Shown here in pieces: positions 16,501-37,391 of a stretch of 51,461 nt of DNA; position 1 is the first letter of the stretch, and each line of letters opens with the position of its first letter. The notes under the pieces are model-generated. The model was not told the DNA's origin. It saw only the letters and a list, made by a program, of their open reading frames with translations, and did no database searches. Position numbers and translations under genes: made by a program. Source of the stretch: Pigoraptor vietnamica (taxonomy: Eukaryota > Opisthokonta > Filasterea); assembly GCA_943704525.1 (NCBI GenBank), contig CALSCQ010000698.1, forward strand, positions 1 through 51,461, written 5' to 3'.

Positions 16501-17881
16501 TTACTTTGTGCGTTGGGTAAGACTGTGTGTCTTGGGTGAGAGGCTAAAGTATCTTGCGTTGAAAAACAGGCGCTGTTCGCGAACACGAGACGATGATTCG
16601 ACGGATTATTGCGGGGCGCCTCACTGAGAAAGAGATGGAGCGATTGGGCTTGAGGGACCCGGATGCGTATCCGCCATGTTCGCGCCTGGCTGTTGGCGCT
16701 CGTTTTGCATTTACTCTAGAGCATCACGACATCGCGCTGTTCGCATTGCTAGTTCTGAATTGAGACGGTTCTGCGTTCGATTCTGGCGTTTTCCTTCATT
16801 TTTTCTTTTTCTTCTTTTGGTGGTGCGTTGCCTTGACACACTTTTCGCAACAGCGAGACGGCGGCTTTTGTGAAAGAAAACACGGTGCAGGTGGAGGAGG
16901 AAAAGTACCGCTGCAACGTCTGCACGAAGATGTTCAAGGGCCCCGAGTTCGTCGAAAAGCACATCCGCAGCCGCCACGAGGACAAGATCGAGGAGGCGCG
17001 CGAGAAGGTGACCCACTGCTGCTTGTCTCTTTTTTCCCTTCTGTTAAAACAAACTACTCTTTTCTGTGGTTGTTGAAGTCCATGAATCGACACCTAGTGA
17101 GAGACTCTGAGTGATTCTGGTCCTTCTCAGTCTCTGCTTTTTGTATCTGTTGAAGTTGTTGGTTCGATCCTCGTGAGCGACAGTGGGCTGAGACTTCGAT
17201 TGTTTTTTTCTTTGTCTTCTGCTTATTGCATCGCAGGCGAACATGTTCAACCGTTTCCTTGCGGACCCTCGGCACACTATCGCCCTCAGCGCGCCATCTG
17301 GGCGAGAGGCGAAGGCCGTCCCTGCGAACGTGGCCTCGCGGCTGGGCAATTATGCGCCCGCGCCACCCCCGCCACAGCCCGGAGGCAGCCTCCTCCCTCT
17401 TCCGGGTGTGTAGCGGCAGTATTGTATGCAGCGCTGACAATCCCTGTGCAATTTTTCGACTGCTTTGCTGTGGTGCTGACTTTCACTGGCCTGTCGCAGT
17501 CCCTCCACCGGCGCCGTACTATCCGCCCCCGATGGCCCCGATGGCTCCGGGGATGATGCCGCCGGGATACCCCGTGGACGTACCGATGGGTGCCGACTTT
17601 GGCCGGCGCCCCTACCGGAGGGACGAGAGGTGCGTGTGCCCGCGTGCGTTGGTCTGTGGTCACATGTGCTTCTCTGTTCGACTTATAGTCTCTTCGTGGA
17701 TGCAATCGTTGACTTCGTGTGCCTTGTCTGTTTCCCATAACACCATGCGCTTGCACTATACTCAACGTGCGTCGTGCGCAGGTTTGACCGCCCACCACGC
17801 GGCTACGTCGACCTCGACAATCCCGCCGCCGGTGCCAACGCCATGATGGGGCGCAACCTCGTCAACTACGGCGATTTGTAA
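13520..17881 (+). CDS. SRRT: ARS2/SERRATE homologue, nuclear cap-binding complex adaptor
   Basis: Exons by phase: 13520-13752, 13939-14205, 14446-14774, 14979-15184, a possible 9-base microexon 15251-15259, 15341-15490, 15650-15790, 15891-16115, 16279-16426, 16570-16666, 16854-17007, 17237-17405, 17500-17629, 17782-17881; about 785 residues. ARS2 bridges the nuclear cap-binding complex to RNA processing and decay. Evidence: an N-terminal Arg/Asp mixed-charge region, a Pro/Met-rich stretch, MSFKQFL and a helical DUF3546-type domain, a central domain with [15 protein letters not shown], the zinc-finger signature [20 protein letters not shown] (family hallmark), and a C-terminal YVDLD near the end like the conserved YRDLD tail. 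The intron 16667-16853 is U12-type. The GT repeat after exon 2 is intronic. ATG chosen because upstream sequence in frame lacks coding character and the start has a purine at -3. Confidence 0.93.
14206..14345 (+). repeat. (GT)n microsatellite inside an ARS2 intron
   Basis: Almost pure TG/CG repeats beginning right at the donor of the second intron. Frames through it are repeats of Cys-Val and not coding. Confidence 0.9.
16667..16853 (+). other. U12-type intron in ARS2
   Basis: Donor GTATCCGCC; branch-type motif TTGCCTTGAC with the branch A at 16836, 17 bases before the exon; acceptor CAACAG. The phase-2 junction is required to join DPDA to the ETAAFV exon, so the boundary does not rest on the motif alone. 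Confidence 0.8.
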
Positions 17882-18232
17882 CGCGTGTTTCAATTAAAGC
17901 GCGCGCTGGAGTTATGCTGGGCATCTGAATGGTCACTGTACTCGTTCTCGACATCGATGGCGGCACCGTGTGTGAGCACATTCGTCGCATCGTTCCACTG
18001 CGCGTGCGTGCATGAAGACGTTGTATTATCCTATTCAGAGAGCTCAATATCATTGGTCACTGGGTTATTGCAGTGGCCATGCAGTACGCGCGTTGATGCA
18101 ACGGAAAATCGATCACGCAGAGGCGAGCGCAAAATTACGCGCGAGAAGAAGTGAAAGAGAGAGGCAACAGCGCAAAAGCGGTCAACGCTATGCGCGCGTC
18201 CGAGACACATACAACGCAAGGAGCCGAGGGGC
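17882..18232. other. Convergent 3' region between ARS2 and MAPK
   Basis: A polyadenylation-like AATTAAA sits at about 17890, just after the ARS2 stop. No coding evidence otherwise. Confidence 0.5.
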
Positions 18233-36454: not shown

Positions 36455-36496
36455 ACTATGCTCTATTTTCAAATGAACGCTGCGTGCGCGCGCAAC
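36455..36496. other. 42-base convergent gap
   Basis: Only 42 bases separate the stop codons of the RING-PA14 gene and GET1, so their 3' untranslated regions must overlap or be tiny. Confidence 0.8.
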
Positions 36497-37391
36497 CTAC
36501 GCCACAAATGCGGACAATACCAATCTGACAACACGGCGGCACACAAACAGCCACGTGATGCCCGACAGCGTCCCTGTGAACATCGGCGTAAGCAGAGTGG
36601 CGGGAACAATGCAATTCGTGCCGGCACGCGCAAGCGCACACACACTCACCAGGAAGACCGCCCCTCAGTGCAAGCGTCCAACCCATTGGTGACACAAATT
36701 CCGGCGGAAAGCGCGCCAGATGGAACGAACGGCAGGCGAGCACAGCCGCGCCCAGCAGCACGTACTGCGCGGTAGACTCCCTCAGTAACACGCGCCACGC
36801 AAATGTGCAGCAGTAACAATGGACTCACGTAAAGTACCGACAGCGCCCTGCTCATGCCAGACGACATGCTGCCCTTCAGCGCCGAGGAATTGCGCTCTGT
36901 TTGCTGCACAGTCAAGACCAAACCAGACAGCAGAGAAAAGACAAGCAGGACAAAGAGTGGACACGCAAAAGGCGGAAAGCACCGGCGGATACGGAAGCGC
37001 TTCAGTTCAGCACTCTTCTCATTGAGAGCACGTTGTGCCCTGGCGTATTTTGCGAATTCATCCTGCGGTGGGCGCGGTTAGGAAGATGCAACGACGGCCA
37101 GCGAACGCGAGAGCAGAACGCGCACCTGCGCGTTGATCCGCGACAATTCCTGCTGCAACTTGAACACGGCTGCGCGGCACTCCCTCTCCTCCCGCGCCGC
37201 CGGATTGTTCCTCTCGGCCCACGCCACCGCAATCTGCAGGCAGTGCATGTGAGTTGCGTGCCTGTTTGAGCGCGGTCGCTGGCGCGCACCTTTGCACCGA
37301 ACTTCTTGGACACGCGCGAGAAGATCTCGAGCGCAGCGGCGACGTACAGCACCACCAATGGTGCAGACACCAGCAGCGCGCCAGCGTCCAT
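36497..37391 (-). CDS. GET1: GET1/WRB homologue, ER receptor for tail-anchored proteins
   Basis: Six exons (minus): 37290-37391, 37126-37233, 36993-37062, 36829-36896, 36650-36764, 36497-36573; 179 residues, similar to WRB (174). GET1 forms the ER-membrane insertase with GET2/CAML and receives tail-anchored proteins from GET3. Features: N-terminal membrane segment (about residues 5-24), cytosolic coiled coil with the family signature DEFAKYARAQR (WRB has DEFARYARLER), a second membrane segment YVLLGAAVLACRSF, and a last one in LSGITWLFVCRRVVRLVL, which aligns with GITCWILVCNKVV of WRB. The exon starting AGCGC is reached only by skipping a nearer AG; phase requires it. The intron 36897-36992 is U12-type. 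No continuous long frame exists, so it is easily missed. Divergent from the SDR gene. Confidence 0.88.
36897..36992 (-). other. U12-type intron in GET1
   Basis: Minus-strand donor GTATCCGCC, branch-type motif GGTCTTGAC with its A about 15 bases from the acceptor CAAACAG. The nearer GTGCAG would break frame. Confidence 0.7.

Follow-up and report, generated by a model that had tools for sequence, protein, structure and literature searches.

The window analyzed here, the whole 51,461-nucleotide stretch of contig CALSCQ010000698.1 of Pigoraptor vietnamica, a unicellular relative of animals, contains an ARS2 gene, an ERK-type MAPK gene and a GET1/CHD5 gene, which together hold five introns with closely similar splice signals (Table 1). 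All five begin with GTATCCGC and end in AG, and each carries CTTGAC shortly before its acceptor (16, 26, 10, 26 and 14 bases from the intron end for the introns whose lower coordinates are 16667, 20355, 19564, 19285 and 36897, in that order), at the coordinates where they had been predicted from the DNA. RTATCC occupies +1 to +6 in 5/5 introns and a TTCCTTRAC-like branch motif with a variable leading TTCC is present near the acceptor of every one. Among the features of U12-type introns that we tested, the sole failing sequence feature is TTT at +7 to +9, found in 0/5 and replaced by GCC or GCA in 5/5. The original prediction described this 5’ splice site as “shifted”; the site is instead substituted at +7/+8, with no shift. 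Within the window CTTRAC lies downstream of GTATCCGC at 5/8 sites and is missing from all four GTG introns assembled in the MAPK gene, in line with the claim that GTG introns lack this pairing of signals. Three further open frames of the window were read by eye: a 2054-residue stop-to-stop frame with a helicase-like VVDECHWG motif (1072-7236, minus strand), a frame with about seven CxxC...H repeats of the VCDKPKSNAIHG type (7809-9932, minus strand) and a 694-residue frame resembling a multi-pass ion channel (42252-44336, plus strand).

Table 1. Probable U12-type introns, their branch motifs and the MAPK gene model, in coordinates of the window.
Feature	Coordinates	Strand	Basis
U12-type intron, ARS2, 5’ site GTATCCGCC	16667..16853	+	joined peptide matches PF04959 across junction
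CTTGAC branch motif, ARS2 intron	16832..16837	+	
ERK-type MAPK gene, model of eight joined exons lacking the C-terminal end	18836..21180	-	reading frame, ERK2 alignment, EukProt relative
U12-type intron, MAPK, 5’ site GTATCCGCA, phase 2, KDV/YIV	20355..20529	-	protein-level junction
CTTGAC branch motif, MAPK intron 20355..20529	20381..20386	-	
U12-type intron, MAPK, 5’ site GTATCCGCC, TKA/IDV	19564..19805	-	protein-level junction
CTTGAC branch motif, MAPK intron 19564..19805	19574..19579	-	
U12-type intron, MAPK, 5’ site GTATCCGCC, GKH/YLN	19285..19491	-	protein-level junction
CTTGAC branch motif, MAPK intron 19285..19491	19311..19316	-	
U12-type intron, GET1, 5’ site GTATCCGCC	36897..36992	-	joined peptide matches PF04420 across junction
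CTTGAC branch motif, GET1 intron	36911..36916	-	

Removal of the five introns gives back ungapped ERK, ARS2 and GET1 sequence. The joined MAPK exons encode a 313-residue ERK (the C-terminal end lying outside the assembled model), residues 3-313 of which align to solved ERK2 without a gap. This ERK also shares 91% identity with a protein listed in EukProt as Opistho-2, the single gap lying apart from the three junctions. We take Opistho-2 to be the filasterean Pigoraptor chileana and its EukProt entry to be transcriptome-based, in which case the alignment would lend indirect RNA support to the MAPK junctions. The Pfam matches that span the ARS2 and GET1/CHD5 junctions score 69 bits and 34.5 bits, respectively. 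Minor introns occur in 69% of human MAPK genes (PMC6865273), and on that evidence the MAPK gene is a minor-intron host in both this genome and human.

The altered 5’ splice site recurs across the genome, which was surveyed over 32.5 Mb in 1395 contigs with each pattern read backwards as the control. GTATCCGC occurs 709 times against 441 reversed, and the canonical form GTATCCTT is not enriched genome-wide (186 against 211 reversed). Pairs in which GTATCC is followed 85-145 bases on by CCTTGAC number 66 against 18 reversed, one of the 66 being a window intron. As anticipated from the window, GC predominates at +7/+8 (36/66 pairs, against 1/66 with TT), while the 30 pairs without GC are spread over 13 dinucleotides, none seen more than five times; with an excess over control of 48 pairs, most true pairs probably carry GC. 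The constancy that had been claimed at +9 does not extend to the genome, where that base is free (C 14, T 13, A 6 and G 3 among the 36 GC pairs). Three GTATCC-CCTTGAC matches, on contigs C424, C564 and C1059, begin GTATCCCGCC, with one extra C; they look like introns and perhaps represent a variant 5’ site. In loci sampled outside the window, 12 of 87 GTATCCGC sites (drawn from the first 100 of the 709 places, with 13 left out) are followed by CCTTRAC at a distance of 40-300 bases, compared with 5 of the 136 remaining GTATC sites (Fisher p = 0.006), the backward control giving 1/87 and 3/136; with window sites included the counts are 16/95 and 7/175. A search meant as an unbiased entry, TTCCTTGAC-N(4-30)-CAG, showed no genome-wide enrichment (88 versus 96 in the control), so the branch motif alone does not pick out these introns. 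Their number can be bounded roughly, from some tens on the sampled fraction to about 270 on the excess of 709 over 441.

Several of the sites outside the window fall in recognizable genes. Over the window and loci L016-L095, CTTRAC with a subsequent AG was found at 24 of 95 distinct GTATCCGC sites and was absent from 71; for the sampled sites outside the window the count is 19/87. Joined peptides from a ClC-3-like exchanger (L036), WDR19 (L039), V-ATPase subunit e (L041) and importin-4 (L050) each align to a solved protein ungapped over the junction, and a sodium-channel-like gene (L092) gives a weak ungapped match (E = 3.5e-4). Four more loci (L067, L070, L095 and L021; a lipase, a DHHC transferase and two others) have a plausible reading by eye only. 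At L045, L051, L069, L078, L085 and L087 no supported coding junction was seen, and these sites may be chance matches. Pfam returned nothing for 4/10 joined peptides in one set and 4/5 in another, matches under the family cut-off not being taken as support. In a kinesin-like gene read by eye (L035, minus strand, site 4947), the GTATCCGC intron seems to use an acceptor nearer than the one chosen by the script, with CCTTCAC as a possible branch site, so that the CTTRAC screen probably undercounts.

The genome also encodes components of a minor spliceosome. U12 (contig C1296, 73.8 bits), U4atac (contig C1072, 64 bits) and U6atac (contig C932, 81.4 bits) all score over their Rfam cut-offs, and in the 14 control genomes no match to any of the three RNAs passes. 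The expectation that minor snRNAs would be found is thus borne out for these three and not for U11, to which we return below. The branch-binding sequence of U12 is canonical, in agreement with the unchanged branch motif of the introns. An 11-base snRNA promoter element, TGTCCCACAAG, lies exactly at -68 before both U4atac (L015) and U6atac (L009), and a variant of it, AGTCCCATAAG, lies at -73 before U12 (L014).

Taken as a whole, these data suggest that the introns are minor (U12-type) introns whose 5’ splice site changed from GTATCCTTT to GTATCCGCN in this filasterean lineage, with the branch site remaining canonical and U6atac partly co-changed, a reading to which we assign a probability of roughly 0.8 on sequence comparison. 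The U12-type identity with GC for TT at +7/+8, as originally predicted, would follow from the excess of signal pairs, the prevalence of GC among them and the presence of the minor snRNAs. Like canonical U12-type introns, those described here have GTATCC at +1 to +6, CCTTRAC near the acceptor and the U12, U4atac and U6atac RNAs to match; they differ in having GC rather than TT at +7/+8, a free base at +9 and a U6atac with AGCCGA in place of AAAGGA. That they are ordinary introns of the major spliceosome, beginning GTATCCGC and containing CTTGAC by chance, would be compatible with their GT-AG ends and with the 71 GTATCCGC sites that have no CTTRAC and subsequent AG, but we regard this as very improbable given the genome-wide pair counts, the missing motif in GTG introns of the same gene and the minor snRNAs.

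The substitutions in U6atac are confined to its splice-site box. One copy over the cut-off was seen, and it reads GUAUGA-GCCG-AGAGAAGG versus GUAUGA-AAGG-AGAGAAGG in the Rfam consensus, canonical on both flanks; in human numbering the box is A11 G12 C13 C14 G15 A16 and the substitutions are A12G, A13C and G14C. A12G and A13C create the exact partners of +8C and +7G, whereas G14C opposes +6C in a C-C mismatch. The original prediction of compensating change in U6atac fits positions 12 and 13 and fails at the third change, and the GGCGG-type box that it had foreseen is absent. In a fixed register with GUAUCCGCU, U6atac pairs at +4, +5, +7, +8 and +9, with none at +6. As the third change breaks the pair at +6, the modelled duplex with GTATCCGCN is not clearly improved (-2.5 to -3.5 kcal/mol for the AGCCGA box versus -3.3 for the canonical box), and this lack of a clear gain in the model weighs most heavily against a simple compensation account. 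The perfect complement of the AGCCGA-box U6atac at +5 to +8, GTATCGGC, had CTTRAC at 0/9 sampled sites and gives no sign of use as a 5’ splice site. The gene itself looks functional, judging from its predicted pairing with U4atac (stem II -17.2 and stem I -10.6 kcal/mol in the thermodynamic model), the T-run at its 3’ end and the promoter element that it shares with U4atac; its conserved core is kept. A second U6atac-like match (L010, 21.6 bits against a cut-off of 33) was without the AGAGAAGG core and was rejected, and a search of viral contigs with the U6atac-core pattern matched one contig, which had no Rfam match.

Two other accounts of this box were weighed. By our estimate, random mutation of positions 12 and 13 would make both changed bases fit about one time in nine, so the U6atac match is by itself not overwhelming. 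The 5’ site may have changed to follow U11 alone (or a protein, for instance U11-48K) while the U6atac box drifted and came to fit +7/+8 by coincidence; the +6 mismatch and the absence of a gain in duplex energy would suit such drift, but its restriction to the splice-site box between canonical sequences, and to the partners of exactly the two altered intron positions, makes it unlikely in our judgment. Alternatively, the assembled base at position 14 could be erroneous or represent a single allele; the true box would then be AGCGGA, which pairs perfectly with TCCGCT, and the compensation would be complete. This box is one base from the assembled AGCCGA, the gene is known from its single copy over the cut-off, and Pigoraptor assemblies derive from mixed cultures according to the genome paper (PMC9492541); against it, single-base assembly errors are rare and the remainder of the gene, with its clean U4atac pairing and conserved core, bears no signs of error, and we consider this reading quite unlikely. 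The co-change of U6atac with the splice site, partial as it is, remains our preferred account of the box.

For U11 the searches gave no candidate among the loci inspected. Rfam RF00548 had no match up to E = 10 among the 39 of 1226 candidates scored; GCGGG...AATTTTTNGG matched nine times against five reversed, and the eight covering loci contained no U11 by cmscan. The promoter element followed by GCGG was found 15 times against 11 in the control, with nothing U11-like among the three inspected, and the addition of an Sm-like site left 4 against 0, of which the one inspected was a Y/stem-bulge-like RNA. A protein of the U11 particle may be represented by one match to the U11-48K zinc finger (PF05253, 28.2 bits against a cut-off of 21.1), a short model that also passes in 1/14 prokaryotic controls. 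As a separate observation, a gene resembling Y RNA and stem-bulge RNA lies at G000:C284:19075-19235 on the minus strand (L107), with 41.4 bits to RF01656 (cut-off 38, E 1e-7), 20.4 bits to RF00019 Y_RNA (under the cut-off of 38), a GGTTATC loop motif, a T13 terminator and, upstream, the promoter element GTCCCATAAG with TATATAAGG; a second copy of this type of promoter element with TATATAAGG, at matching spacing, lies at G000:C1110:24024-24097 (minus strand). No Y or stem-bulge RNA was known from plants or fungi in 2015, according to a review of that year (PMC4726728), and such an RNA outside animals would be notable.

A fuller account, which we hold tentatively and at somewhat less than even odds, is a natural rewrite of the minor 5’ splice-site code in which most minor introns have GC at +7/+8, U11 and U6atac have both followed, and U6atac functions in spite of a C-C mismatch built into its helix at +6, a position read by U11 alone. 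Under the main reading U11, with a presumed GCGG-type 5’ end, would pair first with +4 to +8, probably through that sequence. U6atac would then displace U11 and pair on either side of +6, with +4U, +5C, +7G and +8C and also with +9 where it is U. The mismatch at +6 would be tolerated, with +6 reserved for U11, or would be an assembly error, and CC would have been retained at +5/+6 because U11 pairs with both. The remaining splicing steps would proceed as in other eukaryotes. The window is 61% G+C, and we speculate that high G+C may have favored the change from TT to GC.

Some precedents resemble this proposal in part. Physarum polycephalum is known to have gained minor introns on a massive scale, and in 2021 Larue, Elias and Roy reportedly described altered minor-intron signals in this species as having co-evolved with its spliceosome. 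The likeness to Pigoraptor lies in the alteration of the signals, and the two differ in that Pigoraptor has an ordinary number of minor introns and a change at +7/+8. In the human P120 assay, U6atac G14/G15 pair with C5/C6 (human numbering), and a CC5/6GG intron is rescued by U6atac GG14/15CC together with U11 GG6/7CC (PMC4980772). There, as proposed here with a presumed change in U11, the splice site and both RNAs are altered at paired positions, but the change is a laboratory one at +5/+6, whereas in Pigoraptor it is natural, lies at +7/+8 and leaves position 14 mismatched. A survey of minor introns across eukaryotes, run with intronIC at its default settings, mentions none of Pigoraptor, Capsaspora and Filasterea in its main text (PMC10639083); the string “spliceosom” is likewise absent from the available text of the Pigoraptor genome paper (PMC9492541). 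Among the matches listed for Pigoraptor introns, the filasterean minor spliceosome and altered or co-evolved minor signals, a literature whose subscription papers were mostly out of reach, no report of this change was seen.

Few signals in eukaryotic genes are under constraint as tight as that on the U12-type 5’ splice site. U11 and U6atac read it in succession, so that altering it requires a concerted change of two RNAs and many introns. A lineage in which the site has changed would be a natural compensatory-mutation experiment on which positions each RNA truly reads, and would also test how a splice code can change without breaking genes. Minor-intron finders based on GTATCCTTT can be expected to give such introns too low a score, and surveys could therefore underestimate how many minor introns such lineages have.
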